A stretch of 64,000 nt of DNA, from contig NZ_JADEYS010000001.1 of assembly GCF_015209595.1 (NCBI RefSeq), positions 372,001 through 436,000 on the forward strand. The letters are read 5' to 3'. The position numbers were made by a program, and so were the translations under genes. The DNA comes from Pontibacterium sinense (lineage in GTDB: Bacteria > Pseudomonadota > Gammaproteobacteria > Pseudomonadales > Balneatricaceae). Positions 2,569 through 62,421 of this stretch are shown here, one piece after another (positions within the stretch are counted from its first letter, which is position 1; the number at the start of each line of letters is the position of its first letter). Below the pieces are notes generated by a model. It saw nothing but the letters and a program-made list of their open reading frames with translations. It did not search any database and was not told where the DNA came from.

Positions 2569-2619
2569 GTGGGCGCGTGTTACGGGTAATAGGCAATAGT
2601 GCTGACGGGCTGTTTTCGC

Positions 2620-2625
2620 TATAAT
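2620..2625 (+). promoter_or_regulatory. Candidate -10 box for hom-thrC
   Basis: A perfect TATAAT lies 55 bases before the chosen hom start and just after the dsbC terminator, where a promoter is needed. No good -35 hexamer sits 16-18 bases upstream, so the promoter may be activator dependent. No leader peptide rich in Thr or Ile codons was seen, so attenuation of the enterobacterial type is not supported. Confidence 0.45.
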
Positions 2626-2679
2626 ACCCGGCTCAATTTTTGTGCAGTGCTGAAGATATTCACAGCGAGAGGTTATAGT

Positions 2680-3981: not shown

Positions 3982-3993
3982 GGAGTCTTGAGC

Positions 3994-5388: not shown

Positions 5389-5407
5389 TAGATCGATCTG
5401 ATCTGGA

Positions 5408-5435
5408 AAGGCCCGCATTTGTCGGGCCTTTTTTG
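5408..5435 (+). terminator. Rho-independent terminator after thrC
   Basis: Stem AAGGCCCG / CGGGCCTT (5408-5415 and 5423-5430), 7-base loop, then TTTT. The next gene begins only 3-8 bases after it, so that gene must be read by read-through or from a promoter inside thrC. Confidence 0.88.
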
Positions 5436-5438
5436 TCT

Positions 5439-7960: not shown

Positions 7961-7984
7961 ACCACCTAGGAAGAAAAACTGTAA

Positions 7985-8167
7985 ATGAAAGATCTGGCCC
8001 TGAATGAACTGGAAATCCTGTTGGCAGTATTTGCGCGTGCGGGTGTTGAAGACACAGCGGGAGATGAGGGTGAACTGTTAGCTCAAGTTAAAAAAGCACA
8101 TGCTGAACGTCAGGAACTGGAAAGCATGGATTTTGATGACTGTCTGGGCGGTGCTTGCAAGCTGTAA
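7985..8167 (+). CDS. Small acidic hypothetical protein (60 aa)
   Basis: Unrecognised family. The ATG has AGGAAG 11 bases upstream. The product is acidic and helical at the start ([16 protein letters not shown]) and ends with a cysteine-containing tail, [10 protein letters not shown]. It has no signal peptide or membrane segment. It sits 24 bases after recJ and ends 2 bases before the nfo ATG, so it is probably cotranscribed with two DNA-repair genes. The tight spacing and good ribosome site make it a likely real gene; function unknown. Confidence 0.65.
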
Positions 8168-8169
8168 CT

Positions 8170-9030
8170 ATGAGCAAACCATACTACATCGGTGCGCACG
8201 TAAGTGCCGCCGGTGGCGTTGAAAATGCGCCACTGAATGCAGCCAAACTTGGCGCAAGTGCTTTTGCGCTTTTTACTAAGAACCAGCGCCGATGGGAAGC
8301 AAAACCGCTGACCACCAAGAACATCACGTCTTTCAAGGAAAACTGCGATCGCTTAGGTTTTACGCCAGAGCAAATTTTGCCGCACGATTCCTACCTGATC
8401 AATCTCGGTCATCCGGAGAAAGAAGCGTTGGATAAATCCCGTCATGCCTTTCTTGATGAGTTGAAGCGCTGTGAGCAGTTAGGTCTCAAATATTTGAACT
8501 TTCATCCGGGTAGCCATCTAAGGAAGACCTCAGAAACCGAATGTCTGGCGACAATCGCACAGTCTCTGAATTGGGCGTTGGATCAAACGCAGGGTGTCAC
8601 TGCTGTCATTGAAAATACGGCAGGTCAGGGCAGTAACCTTGGACATACTTTCGAGCAGTTGGCTGAGATCATTGATCAGGTCGAGGACCAAAGCCGAGTA
8701 GGCGTGTGTCTTGATACCTGTCATACATTTGCTGCCGGATATGACCTGCGGACATTTCAGAGTAGTGAGCAGGTGTTCACTGCGTTTGATGAAACTGTTG
8801 GCTTCGAGCATTTGTGTGGCATGCATTTAAATGACTCTAAAGGGGCATTGGCATCAAGGTTGGATCGTCACCATAGTTTAGGTCAGGGAGAAATCGGCTG
8901 GGATGTGTTTCGTTTTATCATGCAGGATGACCGCTTTCGCGGTATCCCGTTAACTCTGGAAACCATCGATGAGACGATCTGGATGGAAGAAATACAGACT
9001 TTAAGGCAGTTCACTCGGGCTGACCAATGA
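8170..9030 (+). CDS. nfo: Endonuclease IV
   Basis: AP endonuclease that cleaves 5' to abasic sites using three zinc ions. The family signatures are present: [15 protein letters not shown] at the start, [32 protein letters not shown] and [17 protein letters not shown]. The zinc ligands His, Glu and Asp sit in these motifs. ATG 8170 is the true start; the frame extends up to 8155 but only by overlap with the upstream gene. The 286 residues match E. coli Nfo (285). It ends the recJ unit. Confidence 0.97.
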
Positions 9031-9125
9031 AGTAGCCATGTTAGATGCAGTGAGGTGAATAGCGGGTTATTTGATTGGTTAGGTTTATCTTTATATCGCA
9101 GGTTTAATCTATCTAGGAGATGTAG
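9031..9125. other. Left boundary of the accessory island
   Basis: Ninety-five bases between nfo and the protease gene, AT-richer toward the right. TTGATT (9071-9076) and TATATC (9092-9097) could be a weak promoter with a short 15-base spacer. TAGGAGA at 9114-9120 is a good ribosome site for the GTG at 9126. No repeat or attachment site was seen. Confidence 0.3.
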
Positions 9126-10220
9126 GTGGATCAGTCTATTTTAAACGCCGTTGTTGCGATTGAGTATGTTAGTGGCTCATCTATTATTAGGGGGTCTGGG
9201 GTTTTACTTCCGGGCGGTACGCATATACTAACGGCGGCCCATCTTTTTAATCAAAACCCAGCTGCACAATCCCTATCTATCTCATCAGGAAATGTATCCC
9301 TGCCATCCGCCAAGAAGATCAATATCCATCATGGTTGGGACAAAAATAGCTCGGACTTCAATCATGATATTGCGGTTATTGAGCTGGCATCCCCCGTTGT
9401 TTCTGTGGATGGGGTTCAGTTGTGGACACAAAGCAACGTGATTGGAGAAGAGATTACGTTTGCGGGTTTTGGCGGAGACAGTGGTTTTCATACTGGCACC
9501 AATACCATCGATGCCGACGGCTCTCAATTGAACGCGACCTTCAATCGTAATGTCGTTTCCGGTACGCAGCTTGTTTACGACCATGATAATGGAACTGAAA
9601 GTCAGAATACGCTGGGTGGCTTGATCAACATGGGTAGCGCCAGGGTAACGACAAGTGAAGGGCAGGCAAGGGCGGGCGACTCTGGAGGGCCTTTGTTACT
9701 GGATGGAAAGGTTGTGGGTATCTCCAGCTACGCCTACCGTGATGATCGATATGATGTGAACAGTTCGGTCGACTTTAGCGCCGGTGAAGTTGGGTTTGCC
9801 ACTGCGGTGCATCCCTATATCCCGTGGATTGAGTCGATTACACAGGGTAATCCGGTTTACTCGGAGCCAACGAACTCAGGCGAAGTTCTAACGTCGATCA
9901 ATGAGCCGTTCACAGGTGAAGTAACAAACTACTTTCTTCTTGAGCTTGCTGCGGCATCGAGTGCTGATATTAGCTTCCATTACCGGACCCAGAACGGCAC
10001 GGCGATAGCGGGAGAAGACTATCAGTTTGCCGAAGGGGATAAAGTCCTAAAAGCAGGCGAAACATCTCTTACTATCCCCATACAAATACTGGGGGATGTT
10101 ATTAAAGAAGAAAATGAAACATTTAGCGTGGTTGTAAATAACTTTGTATCTGAAGGTAATGATATGAATATAGAACTTATTGCCACGCATACTATTTTGG
10201 ATAATGATATTCTGTCTTGA
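9126..10220 (+). CDS. Trypsin-like serine protease with C-terminal Calx-beta domain
   Basis: Residues 1 to about 240 are a chymotrypsin-fold (S1) protease. The triad is intact: His in ILTAAHLF, Asp in NHDIAVIEL, Ser in GDSGGPLLL. Residues about 255-364 form a Calx-beta-like domain (NGTAIAGEDY, ENETFSVVV, ILDND). The protein begins directly with the protease fold (MDQSILNAVVAIEY): there is no Sec signal peptide or propeptide. GTG 9126 has AGGAGA 5 bases upstream. The C-terminal module matches that of the metalloprotease at 15564-17114, which suggests a shared export or targeting route, perhaps type I secretion. That route is inferred; no transporter genes lie in the window. Substrate unknown. 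Confidence 0.88.
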   Translation: MDQSILNAVVAIEYVSGSSIIRGSGVLLPGGTHILTAAHLFNQNPAAQSLSISSGNVSLPSAKKINIHHGWDKNSSDFNHDIAVIELASPVVSVDGVQLWTQSNVIGEEITFAGFGGDSGFHTGTNTIDADGSQLNATFNRNVVSGTQLVYDHDNGTESQNTLGGLINMGSARVTTSEGQARAGDSGGPLLLDGKVVGISSYAYRDDRYDVNSSVDFSAGEVGFATAVHPYIPWIESITQGNPVYSEPTNSGEVLTSINEPFTGEVTNYFLLELAAASSADISFHYRTQNGTAIAGEDYQFAEGDKVLKAGETSLTIPIQILGDVIKEENETFSVVVNNFVSEGNDMNIELIATHTILDNDILS

Positions 10221-10236
10221 TTATTAGTGGCTGAGA

Positions 10237-10283
10237 ACACATATTCTGCACTGGCAGAAAGCCGGTGCAGAATATGTGTGTTT
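10237..10283. terminator. Long bidirectional hairpin between convergent genes
   Basis: Nineteen-base-pair stem (10237-10255 with 10261-10279; one T-G pair) with the loop AGAAA. It lies between the convergent protease gene and the giant gene and can stop transcription from both sides. The T-tracts are weak on both strands (GTTTC rightward, TTCTC leftward), so it may rely on stem strength or act as an RNA-stabilising end. Confidence 0.7.
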
Positions 10284-10293
10284 CTAAAATGAC

Positions 10294-13200
10294 TTATACG
10301 CCAAAGGTGATGATACCGTTTTCGGTAGTTTCGTTGCTACCGATGAGTTGAACCATATCCAAGCCACTATTAGTTACGTTGATAGTGATTGCTTGATCAA
10401 CACCACTCTGGTGTGCGTGGAATGAGACCCGATCAATGTTGGTTAAGCTGTCAGTGCCTTCATTATAGCTGTTGGTTAACAGGTCAGTGACTGTGCCGTT
10501 ACCGCCCGCATCCAAGAAAACTCGATACAGATCAGCTCCTCCATCGTCGTAGATCGTGATTGAGTGGTCATCATCTCTATAAGCCAGTGAGCTTACCTCA
10601 TTGTACTGAGCATGATAGATCGCTGTTGAGATACCTGCGCCGCCTACGAGAGAGTCATTCCCTTGTTTGCCCTCTAATTCTACCAGTGTGGAGTTACTGA
10701 GAGTAAAGCCTTCAACGCCAATTGCACTTAGTATATCGTCGTTGACCGAGCCACGAATATCGCCTCCAGTGTTGCCATCGGGCAGATATTCGACGAAATT
10801 TGTACCGCTTAAATGATAAGTGCCAGTATCGTCTAGTTTGATATCCACGTTTTGCTGATTGGAGATACCAACCGTAATATGAACCGATTCTATCTTTTCC
10901 AATGAATCGGTGCCATCGTCTTGAAGATCAGTTCGATTGTCTATTACACTACCCGACCCGTCTGCACTGAGGGTTACCGTATACAATGTACCGCTGTTAT
11001 CTGTTACGACAACGCTATTGTCTTGTACCGAGGCTGATAGTGGGCCGCTGACTTCATCATGAAACAGAAAATAACCCGCAGTATCTAAGCCCGAGCCGCC
11101 AATAATCTGATCGTCTCCACCGCGTCCTCTTAGGATCACACTGGATGTGGAGTCCGTTGCATCAAATCCTGCGATAACCGCATCAGTATGACTGACGGAG
11201 ATTTCTTCTGCAGCAGATGTTCCGCCGATAAAGCCGTTGTCAGAATCATATGTCACAACTCCTGAGCCATAGAAAATGAAGTTGCCACTATTGCTGAGTT
11301 GAATGGAGAGGTATTCCGACGTTAGTGGGGTTTGGTCATTAAACTGTATACGCTCAATGTTAGTTAGGGTATCGCTCCCGTCATCTGATAGCTCAGTGCG
11401 GACATCAGTGACCTGGCCGCTACCATCAGAGGTGAGGGTTACCTGGTAAAGTTCGCCTGCGCCATCTACGACACTAATGCTGCCGTCTTCGTTGATATGG
11501 GCTGTCAGGTGGCCATCCAGTTCACCGCGTGCAATGTAATAAGCGGCTGTATCGTCGCCTGAGCCACCAATAAGGTGATCATCACCTCCTTCCCCAAAGA
11601 AGTAGGTAGATTTACTTGTATCATTAGGATCAAATCCTACAGCAATCGCTTCTTGGCTGCTGATATTTAGACTTTCAGCAGCAGAAGTGCCTACGATATT
11701 GTTGTGTTCAGGGTTATAGCTAATGATATGAGAGCCGCTGAATGTATAGGCACCACTATCGCTGCGAGCAATAGCTAGCCATTGGCCATCTAGTGTACCG
11801 ATAGAGACCCTTTCAATGTTTGAAAGCGAATCAGTACCTTCATCAAATGCACTTGTATTTAGATCTGTGACCGTACCGCTGCCATTTGAACCTAACGTGA
11901 CATGATAAAGTGGGCCAGTGTCATTGCTCACAATAACCCGCTCAGAATTTTCTGAGTCAATGGATGCGGAAAGTAAACCACTCTGCTCCCCAAGCTGCAC
12001 GCTATAGACAGCAGTATCCTGGCTATTATTGCCCACGATTTGATCATCTCCTTCTTGGCCTTCCAAACGAATCCAAGTGTTGCTGTCCGAAGGAGTAAAG
12101 CCGTAGGCGTCAGGTGCTGAGAGTGGAGTATCGTTCCCTGTGGTGCCTCGTATATGTCCACCACCGTAGTTATCGGAGCGGTAGCTCACCATATGGGTAC
12201 CTTCTAAACGTAGGTGTCCGTTCTCACCGCGCTCAACTTGAAGGTATTGACCGTCGCTACCTGAGTTTATCGATACTCGCTCGATGTTTTGCAGGGTATC
12301 TGTTCCTTCGTCAAATATATCGGTACGGCGATCTGTGACACGTCCGGTGCCATCAGGGTTGAGTGTTACGGAATAAAGTTCACCATTGTCATCTTTGACG
12401 CTGATGCTGCCGTTATCCAATATTTCAGCCACTAACTTACCGTTGATCTCGTCCGCTTTCAGATCGTATCCCGCAGAATCGGTGCCTGCTGCACCAATGA
12501 TCTGATCGTTCCCTTCTCGCCCCGCAATACGGACGTAGGTGGATGTATCCGTTGGATCAAAGCCTGCGTCAATGGCCAGCTGGCTATTAATATTAAGCTC
12601 ATCGTCGGAGTAAGTACCGCCAATATAGTTGACATCCGGTCTATAGCTGACGATGTGTGAACCTTGGACTTGATAGTTTCCACTGTCTGTCAAATTGACG
12701 AGTAGCCAGTTCCTACTGTTTCCATCTTCAATATTGATATGAACAGAGTTGATATGGCTAAGGTTATCGGTGCCTTCATCACGCAGCGTGGTAAGCTCGT
12801 CTGTTACCGTGCCACTGACTTCCTCAGTGTTAGGATCGCGAGATAACGTAATGGTGTAAAGCAGGGTGTCTGCGCTGTCGATAATTGCGATGCTATCACC
12901 GTTTTGGCGATAATTGAGATGACCAGTAACTTCCTCGGCCTTAAGATTATAGGCAGCGCGGTCCGGACTTTCTGGGTTACCAATCAAGATATCGTTGCCC
13001 TCATTACCGGACATGAGTATTTCTGAATCGACAGCATAAGGTACAATGCTTTTGTCGGTATCACCTTGCACGGAAAGGATATCGTCTTTGAATGTACCCT
13101 CGATAATGCCGCCGTTGTTCCAGCGTTCATAGGTGATAAAGTCGCTTCCGAAGACTTCGAATTCGCCTGCTTCGCTGATAGTGACTTCAATCCAGCGTTT

Positions 13201-15315
13201 ATTATCCGGTGAAATGATTTCGATTGAGTCAATGTCTTGAAGCTGATCGGTACCTAGGTTAACGGTATCTGTTTTCAGGTCGGTGATACTTGCAAGATAA
13301 AAACCGATGTCGTCCTGTGCTACGTTAATTCGATAGAGTTCGTCTTTTCCGTCGGTGATCAAGAGAGAGTCATCATCCTGTTCAACCGCGGCAAGCTCGC
13401 CATTTGGCGCAACCTCTTCCTGATAATATGCTCGATTAAAAAGGTCACTGTTGCCGATTAAGGTATCGTTGCCACCTCTACCGACAAAATTAACACCGTA
13501 ATCACCCGATTGGGCAAAGCCCTTGTCTGCAGTCGCTTCTAAAATATCATCGGAACTTGTGCCTTTGACCCTGCCCCAGCCATCAATGTTTGTACGATAG
13601 GTAATTGTCTCTGGCGTTGGGGTAGGGCCACCGCCAGAATCGGTTGGCGTTGGCGTTGGCGTTGGCGTTGGCGTTGGCGTTGGCGTTGGATCTGATTTGG
13701 GTACTGGGGGAGGATTGTTACCGGCAAAGGCCTCGTCACTTATTTCAACTTTGTCAGCTGCTTGGGTTAGGTTTTGTCCGGTAAAGTTGTCCTGTGCTGC
13801 TTTTAGATCGCCTTTTTTGGCACCATCACGGATTGCGGTGGTTGCATCCCCTTGTGCAACGGTTTGAACCTTGGCGGAGTCTTTTAGGGCGTTGGTAATT
13901 TGAGTTGTATCACGGGTATCGGCTTTTTCCAGGGCGTCCTGAATCTGGAGATTGGCAGAAGAAAGTACTTTGGCTGCTTCATCTGCGAGGCCCTTAACGG
14001 TGTTTTTAATATTGCTTTTTTTCGCTTCGTCCGTCATCAATTTAAGGGCGTTATCGGACGCCTTGTTGACGGTTTCTTCTACCAGTGCTGAGTCGGTCAG
14101 ATCAACTTTTTCTGCGTTATCGGCAGAGATACTGATCTTTTCGGCAAGTGCTTGGATAGTCGCTTTCATCGCATCCTTCGTACTGACTTCACCTTGAGTG
14201 GCGCCAGTGACTACCGCTGCTGACTGTACGAGCATATTGGCGACTTGTATGTTTGCTTTTTGCAACAGAAGTGCTTTGCCAACCGTACTGCTATCGGCCG
14301 CTGTTTTGGTAGCCTCATCAATGGGATCAAAGGTTTGCAGGTTTATATCCTGAGGTAGGTCTAAGGCTTGTACAACTTCTTTGGTAGCTTCTTCTACTGA
14401 CTTACCTGTTTCTACAATCTCTGCAATAACTGTTGTAATCGGAGTTATCACGCTAGAGCCAGCGGGTGCCTTTAACGCGCCTTCAAATGCCAGACCGGTA
14501 GAAATATCGGTACCGCCAAATGCGACCAAATTTCCGGTGCCAGTCAGAGTGAAATCTCCATCAGCGTCTGTGGTTGTAGAGGCCTCGCCCTCGTCGAGAA
14601 TGCCGTTGCCATTGGTATCTGCAAATACTGTGGCACCTTTGATATAGCCATCAATCAACTTGCCTGATACCGGGCTGGTGCCCGGTAATGTGGCTCCATT
14701 GTAATCATTGCTTCCGTAAAGTGACGTAATTAAGGATAGTTTGTTGCTATCTGCAGAGGAGAGTTCAACGGTGGTGGGACTTCGATTGAGAATTCCATGA
14801 AAAATAGCGCTAGTTTGAACATCGCTCCCTTTCAAAGACTCAAATTCGGCAGACGCAGCAAAGCTGTTGATTACATCGGCTTGACTGAAACCTTCAGACA
14901 TTTTGCCTAACCAATAAGCTTTGCCTTCATCATCTGATCCACGTCCAAGCGCATGCTGGTACAATGTATCCAGAAATGCTGTTTCTGTTGGCGCATTGGC
15001 GTACGTACGACTGAACTCATCAGACTGGACGAAAGAGTGGGCAATATCCTGCAGGCTTTCTCCGCGGTGCATCGCTTCGACCCAATAAGTTAAACCTTCA
15101 TAATCCGGGATGCGGTCGAACACTAAGAAGTACAATTTAGTTAAGGCAGCAGCAGTGCCTTGATATTCTGTACTATTGATAAATGCAAGTGTTGCTTGTG
15201 CGGCGGTAATTTTATGTGTATCAAGCTCGTTTACCCAATATGCCTTGCCTTCTGTATCGGGATTGCGAAAGAGAAACTTTGTATAGAGCTGATCTAGAAA
15301 AATAGAGGCTGTCAT
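10294..15315 (-). CDS. Giant DUF4214 / calcium-binding-like repeat protein (1673 aa)
   Basis: Probable exported or surface protein; function unknown. Residues 1 to about 205 hold three to four DUF4214 repeats (FLDQLYTKFLFRNPDTEGKA type). A short module near residue 230 carries an EF-hand-like loop, DTNGNGILDEGE. An Ala/Lys/Asp-rich, mostly helical region spans 300-540. A Pro-Thr linker (about 542-565) leads to seven tandem repeats of about 155 residues (573-1660). Each repeat holds a GGDDQIIGGSG-like Asp/Gly turn, a strand-rich part with DEGTDTL and NIERV motifs, and a closing HIVSY motif. No signal peptide is present; the start ATG has AGGA upstream. DUF4214 proteins without signals are often type I secretion substrates. 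Divergent from the metalloprotease gene. Confidence 0.85.
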   Translation of the reverse strand: MTASIFLDQLYTKFLFRNPDTEGKAYWVNELDTHKITAAQATLAFINSTEYQGTAAALTKLYFLVFDRIPDYEGLTYWVEAMHRGESLQDIAHSFVQSDEFSRTYANAPTETAFLDTLYQHALGRGSDDEGKAYWLGKMSEGFSQADVINSFAASAEFESLKGSDVQTSAIFHGILNRSPTTVELSSADSNKLSLITSLYGSNDYNGATLPGTSPVSGKLIDGYIKGATVFADTNGNGILDEGEASTTTDADGDFTLTGTGNLVAFGGTDISTGLAFEGALKAPAGSSVITPITTVIAEIVETGKSVEEATKEVVQALDLPQDINLQTFDPIDEATKTAADSSTVGKALLLQKANIQVANMLVQSAAVVTGATQGEVSTKDAMKATIQALAEKISISADNAEKVDLTDSALVEETVNKASDNALKLMTDEAKKSNIKNTVKGLADEAAKVLSSANLQIQDALEKADTRDTTQITNALKDSAKVQTVAQGDATTAIRDGAKKGDLKAAQDNFTGQNLTQAADKVEISDEAFAGNNPPPVPKSDPTPTPTPTPTPTPTPTDSGGGPTPTPETITYRTNIDGWGRVKGTSSDDILEATADKGFAQSGDYGVNFVGRGGNDTLIGNSDLFNRAYYQEEVAPNGELAAVEQDDDSLLITDGKDELYRINVAQDDIGFYLASITDLKTDTVNLGTDQLQDIDSIEIISPDNKRWIEVTISEAGEFEVFGSDFITYERWNNGGIIEGTFKDDILSVQGDTDKSIVPYAVDSEILMSGNEGNDILIGNPESPDRAAYNLKAEEVTGHLNYRQNGDSIAIIDSADTLLYTITLSRDPNTEEVSGTVTDELTTLRDEGTDNLSHINSVHINIEDGNSRNWLLVNLTDSGNYQVQGSHIVSYRPDVNYIGGTYSDDELNINSQLAIDAGFDPTDTSTYVRIAGREGNDQIIGAAGTDSAGYDLKADEINGKLVAEILDNGSISVKDDNGELYSVTLNPDGTGRVTDRRTDIFDEGTDTLQNIERVSINSGSDGQYLQVERGENGHLRLEGTHMVSYRSDNYGGGHIRGTTGNDTPLSAPDAYGFTPSDSNTWIRLEGQEGDDQIVGNNSQDTAVYSVQLGEQSGLLSASIDSENSERVIVSNDTGPLYHVTLGSNGSGTVTDLNTSAFDEGTDSLSNIERVSIGTLDGQWLAIARSDSGAYTFSGSHIISYNPEHNNIVGTSAAESLNISSQEAIAVGFDPNDTSKSTYFFGEGGDDHLIGGSGDDTAAYYIARGELDGHLTAHINEDGSISVVDGAGELYQVTLTSDGSGQVTDVRTELSDDGSDTLTNIERIQFNDQTPLTSEYLSIQLSNSGNFIFYGSGVVTYDSDNGFIGGTSAAEEISVSHTDAVIAGFDATDSTSSVILRGRGGDDQIIGGSGLDTAGYFLFHDEVSGPLSASVQDNSVVVTDNSGTLYTVTLSADGSGSVIDNRTDLQDDGTDSLEKIESVHITVGISNQQNVDIKLDDTGTYHLSGTNFVEYLPDGNTGGDIRGSVNDDILSAIGVEGFTLSNSTLVELEGKQGNDSLVGGAGISTAIYHAQYNEVSSLAYRDDDHSITIYDDGGADLYRVFLDAGGNGTVTDLLTNSYNEGTDSLTNIDRVSFHAHQSGVDQAITINVTNSGLDMVQLIGSNETTENGIITFGV
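13644..13689. repeat. Hexanucleotide tandem repeat (TTGGCG)n
   Basis: Seven full copies plus four bases of TTGGCG on the + strand. Read on the coding (minus) strand it encodes alternating Pro-Thr, the linker between the helical part and the repeat domains of the giant protein. The unit is six bases, so slippage changes linker length without breaking the frame. Confidence 0.95.
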
Positions 15316-15563
15316 GTTACGTCCTAGTAGTCAAAATTTACAGCAGCTCTTCACGTGTGTGAGACATCAGTGCGGGTAGACGGATTTAGTGCGAGAATGA
15401 AGTTTGGCAGTGAGGTTTTTTCTTAAATAGGCCTTTGTAGAGTTTTTTGTCTGCGTGCTTTAGGGTTGGTAGTTTTGAATTTTATATGTTTTTTTTATTT
15501 AGGTAATCTATAGAAAATTACAAATATTTAATGATCGTTAATTTTTAAATTCGGAAGATTTTT
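15316..15563. promoter_or_regulatory. AT-rich divergent intergenic region
   Basis: 248 bases between the divergently read giant-protein and metalloprotease genes. The right half (15470-15560) is very AT rich with T and A runs, as in H-NS/MvaT-bound regions; that role is inference. TATAGA at 15509-15514 is a possible -10 for the rightward gene, but no clear -35 is visible. Ribosome sites AGGA (leftward) and GGAAGA at 15553-15558 (rightward) flank it. Confidence 0.45.
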
Positions 15564-17114
15564 ATGGGTAATAGGTTTATAGAGAAATCTGGTGATAGCC
15601 GATCCGATAGCCTTTTGAGTGGCGCTAAATGGGGGGAGGGGGCTGTTGGGGAGCCCGTTTATATTACTTACAGTTTCCCCGAAGGTGATGCATATTGGTC
15701 ATATACTGAAGAACCAGGTTCTGGTTTTTTGGGGCTCAATAAAACACAACAGAAAAACTTTAAATTTGCACTCAATGCCTGGCAGGAAGTGTCTAAACTC
15801 ACGTTTATTGAAATACCCGATTCAATGACATATGGCGATATTCGAGTTGCCTATACAGCGAAAATAACCGGTAATGTTCAGGCATATGCATATTTTCCAG
15901 GTTCTGGAACATATATAGGTGACATTATTAGGCCCAGTGATCAGGCTGGGGATATTTGGATTAATCCTGAGTTAACCGATCTAAGTGTTTCATCGACAGG
16001 CTATGCAACTCTAATTCATGAAGTTGGTCATGCGCTTGGTTTAAAACACAGTTTTGAAAGTGAAGGTGGCTTTCCTGCAATTAACCCAACATTAGATAAT
16101 ACAAAATACACGGTCATGTCTTATACCGAGTATACCGGTGCGGGATATATTTTTACTGAAGAGAATGCTTTCTACTACACCTATCGGGAAGTCATGCCAA
16201 CAACGCCTATGCTATATGACATCCTTGCTGCGCAATATATGTATGGCGTGGATACCACCACCCGTGCTGGGGATGACGTATATACCTTCACAACACAGGC
16301 GGAATTAAAGACGATCTGGGATGCTGGTGGTGCTGACGAAATTAATCTATCTAATCAGAATATTGCTGCGAATCTTAATTTAAATGCGGGCGAGTTTAGC
16401 GATATAGGTCAGAGACAAATGACTTATAAGGGACCTCTGCTTCAGGCAAATGAGAATATTGCGATAGCTTTTGGCGTTATTATCGAAAATGCGACAGGTA
16501 CGCGTTTTGATGACGTCATAACAGGAAACAGTGCTGACAATATCATTGACGGAGGTTTAGGAGATGACCGTATTGATGGTGGCTCTGGCATAGACACAGC
16601 AAAATATCAGGGCGCGCGTGATAGTTATGTACTCACCCAGGTTGCTGCTGGAAATGTGACAGTAGAGGGACAGGATGGCCTGGACACTTTGGAAAACATA
16701 GAGAAACTGTCCTTTAGTGATGGAGACTTTTTGTTGTCAGAGCTTTTGGCCTCTACGGCTACATCGGTTCCTACGACTAAATCTGAGGTAAGTTTAACCC
16801 CAGCAGAAAGTGAAACTGCGTACTATCTACTTGAGATTGGCCAGGTGCAAAGTCAGGATGCAAGTGTGAGTTACGCCACGCGTGATGGAACGGCTTTGGC
16901 AGGCGAGGATTATGTTGCCACAAGTGGTATAGCAACGATAGCAGCAGGCAGCAGCTCTCTGGCTATTGCCGTACAGCTTATAGACGACGCGGTCACTGAA
17001 GACAATGAGACGTTCAGTCTGGTCGTGTCTAATCCTGTCGGCGGAATCTTTTCAAATGACATGATTGAGCTTGTTGCACAACGCACAATTATTGATAACG
17101 ACATTGTTGTGTAA
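15564..17114 (+). CDS. Serralysin-like (M10B) metalloprotease with C-terminal Calx-beta domain
   Basis: Secreted zinc protease. The catalytic domain (about residues 25-225) has the zinc motif HEVGHALGLKH (HExxHxxGxxH) and the Met-turn VMSY. A serralysin C-terminal region (about 235-385) follows with RTX-like Asp/Gly nonapeptides (FDDVITGNSADN, GGLGDDRIDGGSGIDTA). The last 110 residues are a Calx-beta-like domain (DGTALAGEDY, DNETFSLVV, IIDND) like that in the serine protease at 9126-10220. No Sec signal is present, as usual for serralysins exported by type I systems. Typical serralysins are about 470-490 residues and end soon after the RTX part, so the extra Calx-beta tail is unusual. The gene is AT richer than its housekeeping neighbours. 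GGAAGA lies 5 bases before the ATG. Confidence 0.9.
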   Translation: MGNRFIEKSGDSRSDSLLSGAKWGEGAVGEPVYITYSFPEGDAYWSYTEEPGSGFLGLNKTQQKNFKFALNAWQEVSKLTFIEIPDSMTYGDIRVAYTAKITGNVQAYAYFPGSGTYIGDIIRPSDQAGDIWINPELTDLSVSSTGYATLIHEVGHALGLKHSFESEGGFPAINPTLDNTKYTVMSYTEYTGAGYIFTEENAFYYTYREVMPTTPMLYDILAAQYMYGVDTTTRAGDDVYTFTTQAELKTIWDAGGADEINLSNQNIAANLNLNAGEFSDIGQRQMTYKGPLLQANENIAIAFGVIIENATGTRFDDVITGNSADNIIDGGLGDDRIDGGSGIDTAKYQGARDSYVLTQVAAGNVTVEGQDGLDTLENIEKLSFSDGDFLLSELLASTATSVPTTKSEVSLTPAESETAYYLLEIGQVQSQDASVSYATRDGTALAGEDYVATSGIATIAAGSSSLAIAVQLIDDAVTEDNETFSLVVSNPVGGIFSNDMIELVAQRTIIDNDIVV

Positions 17115-22405: not shown

Positions 22406-24298
<1,893 letters not shown>

Positions 24299-24302
24299 CA
24301 GG

Positions 24303-24788
24303 ATGAAATCAGCACAGGGATTTACGATTGTTGAGCTGGTCGTAGTGATAGCGCTATTGGGCATTCTAGCGGCGGTGGCGCTGCCTCGTTTTGTCGATAT
24401 TGGTGATAACGCGCGGGAATCTGTGTTGGAACATCTTGAAGGCAAACTGCACTCGATTGCGAATCTGGTGCATGCCGAGGCGGTACTGCGCAGTGTGCAA
24501 AATCAGGCCCGTAATGATGAGGATGTTGTCATCGACGGTTTGGTTGTGGAGCTTAAATATGGGTACCCCGAAGCCCGTGTCAGTACGGCGGGGCACGCCG
24601 ATATCGTGGATCTGCTCGGGTTGTCTCCTTCAGCAGGCTTAACCGTTGATACCAGCGTAAACAATCGGGTGCGCATCGGTTATGACAATAGTGACAATGG
24701 ATGCTACGTGCAGTATCAGGAAGCTGATCCTGATGCTGGCAGCCCTAATCCCTATATAGTGAGCCGCGCCAACGCCGGTTGTAACTGA
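24303..24788 (+). CDS. Type IV pilin-like (MSHA/pseudopilin type) prepilin
   Basis: A prepilin with a short basic leader cut by prepilin peptidase between Gly and Phe in SAQG-FTIVELVVV. Glu5 of the mature form is present, and the hydrophobic helix (about residues 7-28) continues into a typical N-terminal spine, ALPRFVDIGDNARES. Two cysteines near the end (in NGCYVQY and the final AGCN) could form the D-region disulfide loop. ATG 24303 was chosen; the long frame begins at 24249 inside parE and lacks a leader. It sits between parE and parC, an unusual place, with no other pilus genes in the window. It could be a minor pilin or an orphan pseudopilin. Confidence 0.85.
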   Translation: MKSAQGFTIVELVVVIALLGILAAVALPRFVDIGDNARESVLEHLEGKLHSIANLVHAEAVLRSVQNQARNDEDVVIDGLVVELKYGYPEARVSTAGHADIVDLLGLSPSAGLTVDTSVNNRVRIGYDNSDNGCYVQYQEADPDAGSPNPYIVSRANAGCN

Positions 24789-55302: not shown

Positions 55303-55899
55303 TTATAGGCGGTTTTGAACTTCTGGGCTGTTCTGCGATGTAAAATCAATCAGCTCGGGGAAGAACACCAGAAATCCACCCTCCAGCGTTTCATAATGTT
55401 GCTCAACTTCAATGACTGCCCCGCCAAAACGATTTTGAAAACGGATACGTTCTGCAATACGGTCAAGGGCAAACCCAACCTGTTCCAGGTTGGCATAACT
55501 ACGAATCCAGTCTCCCTCAATCATGCGTTTTACAACACGTTGCATGCGTGCGGGCATGAGGGGATAGCCTTGTTCCAGATCGCTGTAAGCGGACTCGAGA
55601 AACTGATCCAGAGATTGATCACTAAAGTTGTGCCAGTGCCGGATCAGAAAATGATCAAATACGACATCGAGTACAATTCCGGAATAGCGGCGGCGCTGAC
55701 GGGAAAAAAGTGTTTTCAGTTTGCGGACTTCAGCGTGGCTATCGGTGTAATGGTCAATCGCCCGGTGATTTCGTAAGCCTTGGATAATCTCATCGGGTAA
55801 CGCATTTGTATCGACCCCGCGCGCAAAGTCACCGAGCAGATTACCAACGCGGGACGGCATGTTTGCTTCTGAAAAATAGAGGTGGGCAAGATAGTTCAA
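55303..55899 (-). CDS. acpH: Acyl-carrier-protein phosphodiesterase
   Basis: Removes the phosphopantetheine arm from ACP. The family pattern is clear: NYLAHLYFSEA, VGNLLGDFARG, HRAIDHYTDSH, and DVVFDHFLIRHW with metal-binding His and Asp. 198 residues (E. coli AcpH 193). Single leftward gene. Confidence 0.93.
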   Translation of the reverse strand: MNYLAHLYFSEANMPSRVGNLLGDFARGVDTNALPDEIIQGLRNHRAIDHYTDSHAEVRKLKTLFSRQRRRYSGIVLDVVFDHFLIRHWHNFSDQSLDQFLESAYSDLEQGYPLMPARMQRVVKRMIEGDWIRSYANLEQVGFALDRIAERIRFQNRFGGAVIEVEQHYETLEGGFLVFFPELIDFTSQNSPEVQNRL

Positions 55900-56141: not shown

Positions 56142-57077
56142 ATGAAATTATCCATTGTTGCGCCGTTTCACAATGAAGAAGAAAACGTTGATGAGTTCTT
56201 TAATCGGGTGTTACCGATAATAAGGGCTGAGAGTGATTCCATTGAGGTGGTGTGTGTCAATGACGGAAGTTCTGATACGACCCTTGCTCAGCTGCGCGGG
56301 TGGCGGGAAAAAGAACCTGTAATACGTGTTGTTAATTTATCGCGAAACTTTGGTAAAGAAAACGCGTTGACCGCCGGATTAGATCACGCAACCGGTGATG
56401 TGATTATACCGATGGACAGTGATTTACAGGATCCCCCTGAACTGATCCCGCAGATGATCGAAAAGTGGCGGGAAGGGTATGACGTGGTATATGCCCGGCG
56501 TACGGTCCGCAATACTGACACCCTGGCAAAACGCATGACGGCTGTGTGGTATTATAGGCTGTTTAACTTCATTGCCGATCGTCCAATCCCGGATAATACC
56601 GGTGATTTTCGCCTGATGGATAAAAAGGTTCTGGGTGAAGTTAAGAAGCTGGGTGAAAGCGCACGCTTTATGAAAGGCTTGTTTTCATGGGTCGGCTTTC
56701 GCTGCACCGCTGTAGAGTATGAGCGGCCCCCTCGTCATGACGGAAAGGAAAGCCTGAACTTTCGTAACCTCTGGCGTTTAGCGTTGGACGGTATAACCGC
56801 CTTTTCCACCGTGCCGCTGAAAATATGGAGTTATATCGGGATGGGCGTGGCGGGGATCGCATTCCTGTATGGCTTGGTGATTATCTTTAAAACGCTTATT
56901 TTAGGTATTGATGTTCCGGGTTATGCCTCGATTATGGTGATCGTGCTCTTTCTGGGTGGTGTGCAGTTGTTGTCGCTGGGTGTTATCGGCGAGTACGTGG
57001 GGCGTATCTATCTGGAAGTCAAAAAACGCCCCCACTATATCGTTGATCCGGAAGACGAACAGGGATCAAGACGCTAA
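56142..57077 (+). CDS. GT2 polyprenyl-phosphate glycosyltransferase (GtrB/DPM1-like)
   Basis: Transfers a sugar from a nucleotide donor to undecaprenyl phosphate at the inner face of the membrane. The GT-A fold has APFHNEEENVDEF, VNDGSSD, the DSD motif at residues 92-94 in MDSDLQDPPE, and GDFRLMDKKV. Two C-terminal helices (about 230-250 and 265-290) anchor it. 311 residues. It overlaps the GtrA gene by one base (TAATG), so the pair is coupled. The sugar cannot be told. Confidence 0.9.
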   Translation: MKLSIVAPFHNEEENVDEFFNRVLPIIRAESDSIEVVCVNDGSSDTTLAQLRGWREKEPVIRVVNLSRNFGKENALTAGLDHATGDVIIPMDSDLQDPPELIPQMIEKWREGYDVVYARRTVRNTDTLAKRMTAVWYYRLFNFIADRPIPDNTGDFRLMDKKVLGEVKKLGESARFMKGLFSWVGFRCTAVEYERPPRHDGKESLNFRNLWRLALDGITAFSTVPLKIWSYIGMGVAGIAFLYGLVIIFKTLILGIDVPGYASIMVIVLFLGGVQLLSLGVIGEYVGRIYLEVKKRPHYIVDPEDEQGSRR

Positions 57078-57448
57078 TGTTATTTCGTTTTGAGATCGCC
57101 CGATTCGGGCTGGTTGGTATCGCCGCAACCCTGGTTCATGCCGCTATTCTATCGCTGCTGGTTGAGTGGTTCGCGTTGCCGGTGCAGCTGGCTAATATCA
57201 GTGCGTTTGTTGTGGCATTTTTGGTGAGTTATCTGGGACACCATCGTTGGACGTTTGCATCCGATGCGGGCCATAAGGAAGCGGCTAGTAAGTTTCTGCT
57301 GACCGCCATTATCGGATTTATTGCGAATGTCCTGATCATGGAGCTGGTGGTTGTTCAGCTCGGATATCACTACATGATCGGTTTTTTATGCGTGGTGTTT
57401 TCCGTGCCGCCTGCAACGTACGTGATCAGCCGTCTCTGGATCTTCTGA
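57077..57448 (+). CDS. GtrA-family membrane protein
   Basis: Small four-helix membrane protein thought to help move polyprenyl-linked sugars across the inner membrane. Typical features: RFGLVGIAATLVHAAIL, VAFLVSYLGHHRWTF and the late Arg in YVISRLWIF. 123 residues. Coupled to the GT2 gene and 3 bases from the convergent GT39-like gene. Confidence 0.9.
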   Translation: MLFRFEIARFGLVGIAATLVHAAILSLLVEWFALPVQLANISAFVVAFLVSYLGHHRWTFASDAGHKEAASKFLLTAIIGFIANVLIMELVVVQLGYHYMIGFLCVVFSVPPATYVISRLWIF

Positions 57449-57451
57449 TCC

Positions 57452-58957
57452 TTATTCGCTATCAGCGATTATTGAGCGGGCAGGTGGAATAATCGCCCAG
57501 CCGATCTGTACAGGTTCCTTCGTGGTATTCATATGCCAGCTGTACTGAAATGGAGGCTGCACTTCTGCGTGTGGATAACGTTTGAGTAACGTTTCATATT
57601 GCGCCATCTCACCATCCATACTCTCATTCCATACAATCAATCCACCCTCGCGTGCTAAGGCCTCCTCGTCAATCCATGGGCTGCGGCTGATGTCGGCATC
57701 ATAAAGAATGGAGGGGTGTTGGTCGGAATAGTACGCCAGATTTCCGCCCAGCCAGATAGAGGCAACTGCATACTTCAGCGGTTGTGGATAACGCTGCTGC
57801 CACTCGGTGGTCAGTTTTGTTGCTATGGCTTCGCCCGGGAAGTGGGCGCGCTTTTTTAACTTGCCAAACTGCGGAGCAATTAACATCTCTGTGACAAAAA
57901 CACTGGCGAAAAACAGGCTGGTAACGACCCAGACCCGGATTAGTTTTTTCATCCTGACGTCGGTTAGCAGGACGCCGGAAAAGACCATCAGCCACAGTGG
58001 CAGGAAGGTGAACAGAGGCGTGCCCCACATGGAGCGCAGACGCATGCCTGTGGACAGTGATATCAGTAATGTGATGAACAGAGGGCCAAATGCGATCAGT
58101 GTCAGGAAGGTACGATTGGCACGGAGCGAGGGCTCTGCAGATGATGATTGTTTACTCTCTCCCCTGATCAGCAGGAAGAAGGTCGGGAGCAGTATGATCA
58201 ACACAGCCAGCTGAGAGAGTCCAAACCGCAACGGGTTGATCAGATGGTCAGCCAGTGCTTTTTCGTTGCCACTGCCACGTGCTGCGCCGTAACGAATCGT
58301 ACTGAAATCATGGTCTAGCAGCCAGATCAGGTTAGGTAGCCATACCAGTACGGCGGCGATCAACGCTATATAAATGCCTTTCTGGCGCCAGAAAGGGCGT
58401 CCGGCAGGGGTCAGGAAATAACAGGCAACGCTTAGCAGTAGCACGACCGAGTAATACTTGGTCAGCATAGCCAGGCCGCTGCAAACCCCGAGCAGCGCCC
58501 AATCCCAAAGTCGGTTGTGATTGATAGCGCGAAATCCGAACATTACGGTCAGCGCCCAGATCGCCAGTTGTAGAATGTTCGGGTTAAATTCAGGTGTGAG
58601 ATAGTTGTAATACGGGACCAGTGTTAGCAGGAGTACTGCAACGAGCGCCGGTTGTTTGCCGAGAAAGGTTCGGCCTACGGCGTATTGCGCGCAGAATGCG
58701 GTGACCACCGCGATCTGGCTGAGTAGAAATATCGGCCAGTTGCTGGCGGGTGATAGCAGCGTAATCGCGTAGGTCAGCCACGGTGCCAGCAGGGGGTGTT
58801 TATCGTAACCCAATTGCCATTCTTGTCCCCAGGTCAGCCCCTCGACGACGTCTAAGTTTGCATTTGGCTGTAACAGTGTGGGTAACAAAAACCATAAAAG
58901 GCAATGTACACCTAAGGCGAGAAGCAACGTTCGATTGTAGCTGTGGGTGGCTGTCAT
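57452..58957 (-). CDS. GT39-type (ArnT/PMT-like) membrane glycosyltransferase
   Basis: Polytopic enzyme using polyprenyl-linked sugars on the periplasmic side. About ten to eleven hydrophobic helices are followed by a soluble C-terminal part (about residues 375-501). The first loop has EGLTWGQEWQLGYDKHPLLA, with the acidic residue and YDKHPLL expected in this superfamily. 501 residues. It lies 63 bases after the GH9 gene on the same strand. It probably uses the sugar-lipid made by the GT2/GtrA pair, by inference. Acceptor unknown. Confidence 0.85.
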   Translation of the reverse strand: MTATHSYNRTLLLALGVHCLLWFLLPTLLQPNANLDVVEGLTWGQEWQLGYDKHPLLAPWLTYAITLLSPASNWPIFLLSQIAVVTAFCAQYAVGRTFLGKQPALVAVLLLTLVPYYNYLTPEFNPNILQLAIWALTVMFGFRAINHNRLWDWALLGVCSGLAMLTKYYSVVLLLSVACYFLTPAGRPFWRQKGIYIALIAAVLVWLPNLIWLLDHDFSTIRYGAARGSGNEKALADHLINPLRFGLSQLAVLIILLPTFFLLIRGESKQSSSAEPSLRANRTFLTLIAFGPLFITLLISLSTGMRLRSMWGTPLFTFLPLWLMVFSGVLLTDVRMKKLIRVWVVTSLFFASVFVTEMLIAPQFGKLKKRAHFPGEAIATKLTTEWQQRYPQPLKYAVASIWLGGNLAYYSDQHPSILYDADISRSPWIDEEALAREGGLIVWNESMDGEMAQYETLLKRYPHAEVQPPFQYSWHMNTTKEPVQIGWAIIPPARSIIADSE

Positions 58958-59020
58958 ATTAACGACTCAATAAATGTGACTGCCCGACGTGTAGTTAACG
59001 CGCCGGGTGCCGAACCTCTA

Positions 59021-61372
59021 TCATTTGCGTGCAGCCAGATAACCCCAAACGTAGGCGTTAGGGCCAATCGTGGATTGCACGGTGAACTCGTTCAAAGGCG
59101 CAAAATCATATATATCGAAATAGGCTTCTGCGGTTGGCCAAGATGCGTGATTTGGGTAGATCACTTTATCGAACTGCTTTGCGAGCCAATGTTCAAGCTG
59201 ACGTTTGGTCTCCAGTGGTCCGTTGACGGTAATCCCTTCTGGAGGTTGTTGCGCGGATACACGCTGATCCTGGACCAGTGGGTGCTTGGGAGAGTTCTGT
59301 CCGATGCCCGTGGTGAAGGCCATATTCAGCGGATTAGCACCTGCCCCGTATTGGGTCGCCAGCAACACCGCATCAAGGTATTTCTGCTTGCCGGTAAGAT
59401 AGTGTGCCCGAATCAGAGATGAGGCCTCCGGTGCTGTCAGGTTACCCCATCCCAGCCACGCCCAGGGATTACGTTTAGTCCATTTGAATGCGGTCTGATC
59501 GCCGGTACGAATGCTCTGATCAGCTTCCCGCAAGAGAGCCATTTCAGCGTTGCGCTTGATTAAAGAATCGGTTTTGTGGGTGTTTAGATACACGAACGCC
59601 GCATCAGTCTGATCGTGATGCTTCCATTTTTTTAGCGGCGATGCTTTGTTGAAAACCGAGGTTTGTACGAATAAACGGTGCCATGTTTCATTGCCGGTAA
59701 GGCGGTACAATTCTGCTGCTGCAAGGTTGCGAGCGTCTTTCGCCTGATGGGGGAGGTTACGATACGCTCTTCGCGAATAAGCGTCTTCCGCCCAGTTCAT
59801 CGCCTTAAGTGCTGAGGCTTTATAGGTTGCGGCCAATTCAGGCGCAAACGGCTTCAGAATGCGCGCGGCACGAGCCGCGACACCGGCATAGATATGGCTC
59901 GACCAAAAGCCAGGAGCATAGGCTAGCAATGTTTGTGATTCCTGCCAGCTTCCTTCACCGTGTCTGGGGTGATCCATGGATTCAATACCCCCGCGAATAC
60001 CGCCTTCCGGTGTTTGCAAACGGCGGAAAAACTCTAGCCCCCAGAGCGCTTCATCTAACAGATCCGGCAAGTTATTACTCGATTCGGGCAGATTCAGATT
60101 AAGTCCGGCAAAGTACTGCGGATTCATCTCGATCAGTTCCAGCAATAGGCGGGTACTGTCCAGGTGCTGGATACGGCGGTCCCAGTCGCCCGCGTCCGCG
60201 TAACCTCCCCAGGCATTCTCGACCACCAGGGTGGTTTTTCCATTGATCAGATCGGAAAAATTATCCCGTGCGGTACCGCGTGCGTTGATGCCGTTCATCG
60301 TATCCATCAATGGCGTACGTGAGTGGTAAACCACAACACCATCAGCAGGGTGCATATTCCGTGGCCGACGGTATTGAGTGTACGGTGGTCCCAGTTCGAT
60401 CCCGCTGCGCTGGTGGAATAAGCCGCGAACGGATGTGGTGAACGCATCACCCCAGGCATTTTGGTTGATCGGGAAGCTATACGAGCAACCGACGCTTTTG
60501 ACGCAAACCCGATACTCGCCTGCAGTTTTCAGCGCACTGAATTGCATCATATAAACATCGGCACTGGTGTAGTTCTGTTTATACGCATCTTCTGCTTCAA
60601 AGCGGGATTTGGAGAGTTCAGTTTTCCCGCGGTAAACAATCTGCTGCGTCTGATTGTTGATCACTGCAAACGGAAGACCATCGGTATACGGTTGGCCATC
60701 GCCGTTACCGCGCCACAATGATAGAAAGGCGACTTTACGGTTGTCGTCCGGACGGAAACCAATTTGAGACACATGCACGGCTTCGCTACGTACATTGCGT
60801 GTGTTGTGCAGGTACGTTTGGCGGCTAATCGCACTGTTATTAAATTCGATTTCATATTGCGCACCTTCTTTGAGCGGTGCGGGTAGCTTCAGATACAGGT
60901 AGTGGGTGACGGGCCAATCAAATGCCCAGAACCCCGTGCGGGCCATATCGCTGGGGCGGCTTTTACGATAAATTGCGATGGGTTTTTTACCCGCACTATA
61001 ATCCGAATCGTTGTCGGAGCGGATCAGATAGCTAGAGGCAGAATCTGCCCAGCGGGTGTTTAACGGTGCGCCCTGAAACTCATCAAACGGATAAAGCACG
61101 TCCTGTTTTGGTCCTACAACGCTGCCGATGACCTGTTTACCCTGACGTACCCAGCGGTGCCTATCACGACTGTCATCCACCCAATCGATAATCCCTTTGT
61201 CGTAATACCGCTGAAGTGCCGGAATGCGCTTGCCGGCCTGAATCTCGATGCTGAGCACATCGGGCGCGACCGCTGAAATATGGGAGATATAGGGGAGATG
61301 GCTATTTGCACTCACAAAAGCGATGTGGCTGAGCCAGACAAGCGTTGCTGCAATAATCCGTATCATCTTCAA
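59021..61372 (-). CDS. Secreted glycoside hydrolase family 9 protein
   Basis: A Sec signal peptide ends at FVSA. An N-terminal region (about residues 25-210) contains strand-rich, probably Ig-like parts, as in CelD-type GH9 enzymes. The (alpha/alpha)6 catalytic domain (about 310-783) has YADAGDWDRR with the paired Asp (about 390), and Glu762 in LNEFTVQST as likely acid. GGY-DAGDWD, GAGANPLN and NAYVWGYL fit GH9. The family mainly cuts beta-1,4-glucans; other beta-glucans are possible. 783 residues, no carbohydrate-binding module or dockerin. Probable operon with the GT39-like gene. Confidence 0.87.
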   Translation of the reverse strand: MKMIRIIAATLVWLSHIAFVSANSHLPYISHISAVAPDVLSIEIQAGKRIPALQRYYDKGIIDWVDDSRDRHRWVRQGKQVIGSVVGPKQDVLYPFDEFQGAPLNTRWADSASSYLIRSDNDSDYSAGKKPIAIYRKSRPSDMARTGFWAFDWPVTHYLYLKLPAPLKEGAQYEIEFNNSAISRQTYLHNTRNVRSEAVHVSQIGFRPDDNRKVAFLSLWRGNGDGQPYTDGLPFAVINNQTQQIVYRGKTELSKSRFEAEDAYKQNYTSADVYMMQFSALKTAGEYRVCVKSVGCSYSFPINQNAWGDAFTTSVRGLFHQRSGIELGPPYTQYRRPRNMHPADGVVVYHSRTPLMDTMNGINARGTARDNFSDLINGKTTLVVENAWGGYADAGDWDRRIQHLDSTRLLLELIEMNPQYFAGLNLNLPESSNNLPDLLDEALWGLEFFRRLQTPEGGIRGGIESMDHPRHGEGSWQESQTLLAYAPGFWSSHIYAGVAARAARILKPFAPELAATYKASALKAMNWAEDAYSRRAYRNLPHQAKDARNLAAAELYRLTGNETWHRLFVQTSVFNKASPLKKWKHHDQTDAAFVYLNTHKTDSLIKRNAEMALLREADQSIRTGDQTAFKWTKRNPWAWLGWGNLTAPEASSLIRAHYLTGKQKYLDAVLLATQYGAGANPLNMAFTTGIGQNSPKHPLVQDQRVSAQQPPEGITVNGPLETKRQLEHWLAKQFDKVIYPNHASWPTAEAYFDIYDFAPLNEFTVQSTIGPNAYVWGYLAARK

Positions 61373-61410: not shown

Positions 61411-62421
61411 TTAACTGGTGACAGTTGGTAGTACGGTTTTAGACGGACGATCAGGGATCTCCCGTGCTAGCTTCGGTACCAGATAACCGGGCAGCTGGGC
61501 CTGTAGCTGGGCGACCAGGTTTTGGGCCTCAGCATCAGGAATATCAAAGTGTGCTGCACCGTCTACCGGATCAAGTACAAAGAGGTAATAGGGCAGAACG
61601 CCCCAGTCAAACAGTGATTCGTTCAGATGCTTTAGTGCGTGGACTGAGTCGTTAATGCCTCGCAGCAGTACCGCCTGGTTGAGCAGGGTGATATGCGCAT
61701 CACGCAGCGCATTTAATGCCCGGCCAACAGTGTCGTCGATCTCGTTTCCGTGGTTGACGTGTAACACGAGCGTTGTCTGCAGGCGATTTTTACCCAGAAT
61801 GCCGAGCAATTCAGGGGTCACGCGCTCTGGGATGACAACGGGCAGGCGACTATGGATGCGTAGCCGCTTCAGATGGCTAATTGTACTTAGATCATTCACC
61901 AGCCGCTGTAAGCGATTATCGGAAACGGCAAGAGGATCACCCCCGGAGAGGATGACCTCTTCAATGCTGCTGTCAGCCCGAAGGTAGTTGAGCATAGTCT
62001 GCCATTGCTCGGGGCCTAAACGGTTCTCATCGTACGGGAAATGACGACGGAAACAGTATCGGCAGTTGATGGCACACGCGCCGGTCATAATCAGTAGCAC
62101 CCGGCCTTTATATTTGTGGACGATGCCCTGATGTGGATTGTACTGGGCTTCTGATAAAGGATCGGCGACAAATCCGGTGACCTTTTGCGTTTCTGCAACA
62201 AGCGGCAGGACCTGTTTCAACAATGGATCATCCGGATTGCCTTTCTCAATTCTACGCAGATAAGGCATTGGTACTCGTAAGGGAAAGCCTTTTGCTGCTT
62301 TCCGGGCCGGAGCTACCAGAGTCTCGGGCAGATCCAGCAATCGGATCAGCTCGGCAGGGTCATCAATGGTATGGCTGAGCAGCTGTTGCCAGCTGTCTAG
62401 GGAGGTCACCGGAAGATTCAT
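61411..62421 (-). CDS. epmB: EF-P beta-lysylation protein EpmB (lysine 2,3-aminomutase)
   Basis: Radical SAM and PLP enzyme that turns (S)-alpha-lysine into (R)-beta-lysine for EF-P modification. The radical SAM motif CxxxCxxC is in CAINCRYCFRRHF, ILSGGDPLAVSD is a SAM-binding glycine motif, and the PLP lysine region lies near the C-terminus (YLVPKLAREIP). 336 residues (E. coli 342). It diverges from efp. Confidence 0.95.
   Translation of the reverse strand: MNLPVTSLDSWQQLLSHTIDDPAELIRLLDLPETLVAPARKAAKGFPLRVPMPYLRRIEKGNPDDPLLKQVLPLVAETQKVTGFVADPLSEAQYNPHQGIVHKYKGRVLLIMTGACAINCRYCFRRHFPYDENRLGPEQWQTMLNYLRADSSIEEVILSGGDPLAVSDNRLQRLVNDLSTISHLKRLRIHSRLPVVIPERVTPELLGILGKNRLQTTLVLHVNHGNEIDDTVGRALNALRDAHITLLNQAVLLRGINDSVHALKHLNESLFDWGVLPYYLFVLDPVDGAAHFDIPDAEAQNLVAQLQAQLPGYLVPKLAREIPDRPSKTVLPTVTS

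Follow-up and report, generated by a model that had tools for sequence, protein, structure and literature searches.

A candidate three-component periplasmic glycosylation system in Pontibacterium sinense and a neighbouring GH9 gene that occurs independently of it

We analysed a 64,000-nucleotide stretch of the Pontibacterium sinense genome (contig NZ_JADEYS010000001.1, positions 372,001 to 436,000; hereafter, the window), focusing on four adjacent genes at window positions 56142-61372 that encode a GT2 glycosyltransferase, a GtrA protein, a PMT_2 membrane glycosyltransferase, and a GH9 glycoside hydrolase. The best explanation of our results, which we hold to be reasonably probable, is that GT2, GtrA, and PMT_2 (the trio) form a three-component periplasmic glycosylation system that would place a neutral hexose onto lipid A or the inner core, and that GH9 is independent of this system. 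A first-pass annotation of the same DNA had read all four genes as one compact surface-glycan locus in which GH9 modifies a self-made polymer. The families it named are borne out, as all four open reading frames (ORFs) score above the curated Pfam cut-offs.

The separation of GH9 from the trio is apparent within the genus, for which five genomes were sampled (the window's own, G000, together with G001, G002, G003, and G004). GH9 occurs in four of these genomes and PMT_2 in three, the same three that carry a close GT2 (E below 1e-190), and in these three the trio lies at a fixed chromosomal site between acpPD and epmB. Both modules are found together in two genomes, the near-identical sisters G000 and G003; in the fragmented assembly of G003 the four genes are spread over two contigs, and a GH9 scan of genome contigs returned one locus, the 4,118-base contig L005, which is like contig C443 of that assembly. 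In G001, the acpPD-epmB interval holds the trio, likewise arranged convergently, and GH9 is absent genome-wide; G004 has GH9 at the same site, with PMT_2 and a close GT2 absent genome-wide. In G002, which lacks the trio, a GH9 of 55% identity is located on a different stretch and neighbours a sodium:sulfate symporter-type gene. Since this one site can carry either module alone, and since the trio recurs without GH9 in more distant genomes (see below), GH9 is, on gene content, a separate gene joined to the trio by neighbourhood alone. A species tree built from MiaB, DUF1820, EpmB, and EF-P (without EF-P for G003) unites G000 with G003 (100/100), then G001 (93/87), then G004 (100/100). Given this tree and the gene distribution, the simplest reading, with one event each, is that GH9 was probably at the site first, that the trio was then inserted beside it in the common ancestor of G000, G003, and G001, and that G001 later lost GH9.

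We obtained a similar picture across the order. A search for PMT_2 at E<=1e-20 over 244 genomes found it in 12, the window's own included, and 10 of the 11 others encode GT2 and GtrA no more than about 4.5 kb from PMT_2 (nine trios by tblastn, and the tenth, locus L074 of genome G041, with its GtrA assigned by Pfam). The remaining locus, L075, has PMT_2 alone, without its trio partners. GH9 was found neither in the 11 stretches fetched around these PMT_2 genes (12 to 19.5 kb, E<=1e-4) nor elsewhere in the 11 genomes at E<=1e-60. Judged from this co-location in 10 of 11 genomes and from the lack of GH9 in all 11, the trio is a recurrent three-component module, with a predicted role in periplasmic glycosylation, of which GH9 is not part. 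GH9 itself is rare: at E<=1e-60 the window's own genome is the one hit among 293 of the order, and the gene occurs in 3 of 369 class genomes at 1e-30 (the window's own, G411, and G448), and, by profile at 1e-20, in 16 of 398 phylum genomes, again with the window's own included.

These distributions bear directly on the four-gene proposal, in which GH9 would trim a self-made beta-glucan decorated by the trio. Some observations favour it. The genes epmB, GH9, and PMT_2 form a minus-strand run with gaps of 38 and 63 bases, and because these gaps are short, GH9 and PMT_2 may share one transcript starting at epmB. In addition, two of the three members of the GH9 clade from outside the genus (those of Aminobacter and genome G827) lie in exopolysaccharide-type loci, and the more distant GH9 of G761 has as neighbours a further lipid-linked-sugar module and a PMT_2 match below cut-off. 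However, GH9 occurs without the trio in two of the five genus genomes and the trio without GH9 in one, none of the 11 other PMT_2-bearing genomes of the order has GH9 near the trio or at E<=1e-60, and cellulose synthase (TIGR03030) was above cut-off in none of the five genus genomes. The four-gene unit is thus largely refuted by the separate occurrence of its parts, and we consider it very unlikely. The first-pass annotation had held that its proposal would fail if the four families did not co-occur in other genomes and GH9 acted only as a growth enzyme on cellulose. On the first of these points, GT2, GtrA, and PMT_2 do so in 10 of 11, and GH9 does so in none of the 11, with both modules together only in the two sister genomes. 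What was a four-gene guess becomes a testable three-gene one, and the locus serves as an example of a hydrolase linked to a pathway by neighbourhood alone, although the effect is modest.

In the system that we favour, GT2 would load undecaprenyl phosphate in the cytoplasm with a hexose, which is most likely glucose taken from UDP-glucose. GtrA would help the lipid-linked hexose cross the inner membrane, and PMT_2 would attach it to a component of the envelope, for which lipid A or the inner core is the best candidate; GH9 would act separately, as a secreted glycan hydrolase. The making of a polyprenyl-linked sugar by GT2, its flipping by GtrA, and its periplasmic attachment by the third enzyme had been proposed in the first-pass annotation, and these putative roles fit a known three-component arrangement. 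As outlined in PMC11127046, the Gtr system glucosylates O-antigen by means of GtrA, GtrB, and a serotype-specific Gtr protein. As in Gtr systems (e.g., yfdGHI of E. coli K-12), the window encodes together a GtrB-like GT2, a GtrA, and a multi-pass membrane glycosyltransferase. Unlike in Gtr systems, the third enzyme is a PMT_2 protein transcribed towards GtrA, and the genes are chromosomal, with no tRNA found within the 64-kb window. The window's GT2 has a DxD at residues 92-94, a 'DLQDP' motif, and C-terminal hydrophobic segments, while hydropathy indicates four hydrophobic segments in GtrA and many in PMT_2; in the latter, D36 and E39, which follow the first hydrophobic segment, are invariant in 11 aligned sequences.

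The nature of the sugar can be approached through a YdjC-family deacetylase that is present in 10 of the 11 PMT_2-bearing relatives. In nine of them it adjoins GtrA (from the ORF listing for seven loci, two Pfam-confirmed, and from coordinates for G189 and G210). A search of the five genus genomes found no YdjC, and its control recovered that of E. coli. In a GT2 tree of 15 rows, in which ArnC has a long branch, the nine GT2s linked to YdjC group together in a clade (100/99). The GT2s of the window and G001, GtrB sll0501, YfdH of E. coli, and the GT2 of G041 fall outside this clade, G041 being the sole trio-bearing relative without YdjC. A GT2 motif follows the same division, reading QHP in all nine YdjC-linked proteins, QDP in those of the window, G001, sll0501, YfdH, and G041, and QNP in ArnC. 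The window's GT2 is 53.5% identical to GtrB sll0501 (371 bits against PDB 5ekp), 49.3% to YfdH, which is annotated as a bactoprenol glucosyl transferase, and 30.0% to ArnC. PMC4728340 describes the GtrB of Synechocystis as glucose-specific and as making undecaprenyl-phosphate glucose. Because the genus is without a YdjC deacetylase and its GT2 is of the GtrB kind, we predict that the transferred sugar is uncharged, probably glucose. If so, a rule read from sequence, QDP without YdjC versus QHP with YdjC, may predict whether a neutral or an amino sugar is placed on lipid A or the core.

Two further systems help to place this prediction. PMC11279074 describes NaxD (YdjC superfamily; Francisella, Acinetobacter) as converting lipid-linked N-acetylgalactosamine to galactosamine for lipid A, and PMC8168481 describes LgmB as adding glucosamine in Bordetella. 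In these pathways, as would be the case here, a membrane enzyme transfers a lipid-linked sugar to lipid A. The window's relatives resemble the NaxD pathway in carrying YdjC by the trio, and those of the same family also in carrying msbA and waaA. In contrast, the window's genus has no YdjC and a GtrB-type GT2, so that the amino-sugar step is missing. The overall logic is also that of ArnC-ArnT, which places 4-amino-4-deoxy-L-arabinose (L-Ara4N) on lipid A; the window differs in having a GT2 much closer to GtrB than to E. coli ArnC and in having GtrA instead of ArnE/ArnF. Altogether, we regard the locus as largely ordinary. The enzyme classes are all known ones, and the lipid-linked sugar system is of a known kind, of which the window likely holds a neutral-sugar variant.

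A broader proposal is that the donor half of the module is a swappable cassette. In this proposal, the PMT_2 linked to msbA and waaA would in this family normally be supplied with an amino sugar by a donor made of a QHP-type GT2, GtrA, and YdjC. A GtrB-type GT2 without a deacetylase would have replaced that donor twice, once in G041, where the trio is still flanked by msbA and waaA, and once in the window's genus (between acpPD and epmB), and lipid A would then bear neutral glucose and not a cationic amino sugar. We regard this as somewhat doubtful; if true, glucose in place of a cationic amino sugar would have a different effect on surface charge. As a separate observation, the trio of G041 (L074, positions 6587-12519) lies between msbA and waaA with a GT2 67% identical to E. 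coli YfdH and with no YdjC found genome-wide, and it looks like a swap of the donor part at an unchanged place.

The acceptor is suggested by the company that the trio keeps. The relatives comprise six loci from the same family (L067, L068, L069, L070, L071, and L074) and five from another family (L072, L073, L075, L076, and L077). All six same-family loci have a gene for WaaA (Kdo transferase, PF04413) within or next to the trio, and in all six an ATP-binding cassette (ABC) exporter adjoins PMT_2. The exporters of L067, L068, L069, and L074 are all MsbA above the NCBIfam cut-off (TIGR02203), and those of L070 and L071 were assigned from Pfam ABC domains and position. This neighbourhood was not seen in L072, L073, and L075, the three of these five whose neighbours were listed. 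Because the trio sits between msbA and waaA in all six same-family relatives, lipid A or the inner core is most likely the acceptor.

Several observations weigh against our preferred explanation. In the window, neither msbA nor waaA adjoins the trio, and PMT_2 shares only 28-35% identity with the aligned relatives from the order, so the acceptor may have changed. PMT_2 had no match in the PDB, ArnT included, either as a single sequence or as an 11-row profile; the 'GT39-type' label of the first-pass annotation stands as far as the PMT_2 Pfam family, its sole basis, and finds no structural match. The YdjC search would miss a deacetylase of another family. Lastly, the window's GT2 matches 129 phage records, several among those listed being annotated as GtrB or bactoprenol glucosyltransferase. 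Phages, too, use GtrB-like GT2s to convert O-antigen, which makes O-antigen an acceptor to be taken seriously.

The corresponding alternative is that the trio glucosylates O-antigen or another surface polysaccharide, like Gtr serotype-conversion cassettes, and not lipid A or the core. Besides the phage matches, the close relationship of the window's GT2 to YfdH is in its favour, as is the presence in the window's genome of at least one polysaccharide locus (L124), with a Poly_export protein and glycosyltransferases. However, the msbA-waaA setting in the same-family relatives suits lipid A or the core, and a fixed chromosomal site in three of five genus genomes, with no tRNA in the window, is unlike a phage cassette. 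We therefore consider this alternative unlikely, though it deserves attention. A phage-borne Gtr cassette as such was considered and dropped, given the lack of a window tRNA, the housekeeping neighbours, and a site common to relatives.

We next turn to GH9, which consists of a signal-peptide-like segment, an N-terminal module without a Pfam name (about residues 25-195), a CelD_N Ig-like domain, and the GH9 domain. The residues D393, D396, and E762, which we take to be the catalytic acids on the basis of the GH9 motif, are invariant in all six aligned sequences. The protein resembles CelD_N-type GH9 beta-glucanases (endoglucanase D and the BoGH9A xyloglucanase) in combining CelD_N and GH9 domains with the D/D/E residues kept, and differs from them in its extra N-terminal module. 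AlphaFold2, run on a two-row alignment (window and L005), gave a mean predicted local distance difference test score (pLDDT) of 32 and was unusable. The GH9 tree holds 18 of 19 extracted rows (G959 was dropped, as its frame had no blastp match), and in it the genus rows and three outside members form a clade (98/97), within which the branching among the three outside lines is not resolved.

The contexts of these kin point in two directions. The Persicobacter GH9, the highest-scoring outside the genus in the tree set, covers 100% of the query at 33.6% identity, and its plasmid locus also encodes two SusC/SusD-type pairs, a further GH9, GH28, and GH3. The Aminobacter GH9 is likewise on a plasmid, in a locus that includes genes for a flippase, an O-antigen ligase family protein, export, and glycosyltransferases, and that of G827 lies beside flippase, Wzy_C, and glycosyltransferase genes. 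The nearest kin thus appear to serve both breakdown and, by position, biosynthesis, and we judge the role of the window's GH9 to be about even between a self-made exopolysaccharide and food.

That GH9 acts, independently of the trio, on a self-made exopolysaccharide from a distant locus (e.g., of the L124 type) is a plausible reading that we hold tentatively. It draws on the clade shared with two GH9s in flippase/Wzy-type loci, and on a locus with a Poly_export protein of ~700 amino acids (aa) that is present in G000, G003, and G004, the three genomes with GH9 at the acpPD-epmB site; no Poly_export frame of this length was found in G001 or G002. This correlation, however, comprises five genomes related by descent, three versus two, and G002 has GH9 without the Poly_export locus, while the top-scoring outside GH9 sits in a SusCD utilisation locus. 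Judged from search listings, we found no report in the open-access literature tying GH9 to exopolysaccharide biosynthesis loci. Cellulose as the self-made substrate was dropped, there being no cellulose synthase above cut-off in the genus genomes. An equally tentative reading is that GH9 is a nutritional beta-glucanase, which the full-length Persicobacter match and the best PDB profile matches, endoglucanases and a xyloglucanase, would support. Against it, two same-clade kin lie in biosynthetic loci, and no uptake or other glycosidase gene was recognised beside GH9 in the window or in G004, bar a bax-like peptidoglycan-type enzyme.

The more distant GH9s occur in varied settings. No glycan gene was recognised by eye near those of G838 (on a short contig) and G745, and the contexts of those of G307 and G959 are GC-rich with unclear frames. 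The GH9 of G761 (L116, positions 15-7398) lies beside a UbiA-type phosphoribosyltransferase-like gene and DprE1-like and DprE2-like genes (below NCBIfam cut-offs), with the PMT_2 match below its Pfam cut-off, another instance of a GH9 by a lipid-linked-sugar module. In G411 (L024, positions 7286-15165), epmA-like and efp genes are found a few kb away from the GH9, a proximity that is probably due to chance.

Finally, the anatomy of the locus is summarised in Table 1. GT2 and GtrA overlap by 1 base, the convergent GtrA and PMT_2 are 3 bases apart, and the GH9 ORF starts with TTG, with an in-frame ATG at 61366. The left flank (miaB, DUF1820, a bax-like gene, and acpPD) and the right flank (epmB, efp, and epmA) are ordinary chromosome, three of these genes (miaB, efp, and epmA) having been identified by eye, and there is no break in base composition at the four genes. 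In agreement with the first-pass annotation, no polymerase or nucleotide-sugar gene is among the window neighbours in the ORF list.

Table 1. Genes of the studied region and the borders of its site (window coordinates)
Feature	Position	Strand	Length and basis
GT2, GtrB-like polyprenyl-phosphate glycosyltransferase	56142-57077	+	311 aa; PF00535 125 bits
GtrA, proposed flippase of lipid-linked sugar	57077-57448	+	123 aa; PF04138 86 bits
PMT_2 membrane glycosyltransferase, GT-C class by family	57452-58957	-	501 aa; PF13231 111 bits
GH9, signal-peptide-like N-terminus	59021-61372	-	783 aa; PF00759 102 bits (cut-off 27.7), PF02927 (CelD_N) 45 bits
acpPD (ACP phosphodiesterase), left border of site common to relatives	55303-55899	-	PF04336; synteny
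epmB (EF-P beta-lysylation), right border of site; first gene of epmB-GH9-PMT_2 run	61411-62421	-	TIGR03821 above cut-off; synteny

Elsewhere in the window, positions 9126-17114 encode, side by side, a protein with Trypsin and Calx-beta domains, a 1673-aa DUF4214/RTX-type protein, and an M10 serralysin-like peptidase with Calx-beta, and GC content there drops to 0.435-0.484. At 24249-24788, a protein with a prepilin-type N-terminus is encoded between what appear by eye to be parE and parC. In addition, two loci in the genus, L123 (contig C1 of G000, positions 4424-12302) and L125 (contig C2 of G002), pair a GT2 with a 1167-aa TPR protein in a similar layout, and in L125 this pair adjoins genes that resemble pelF and pelG by eye.

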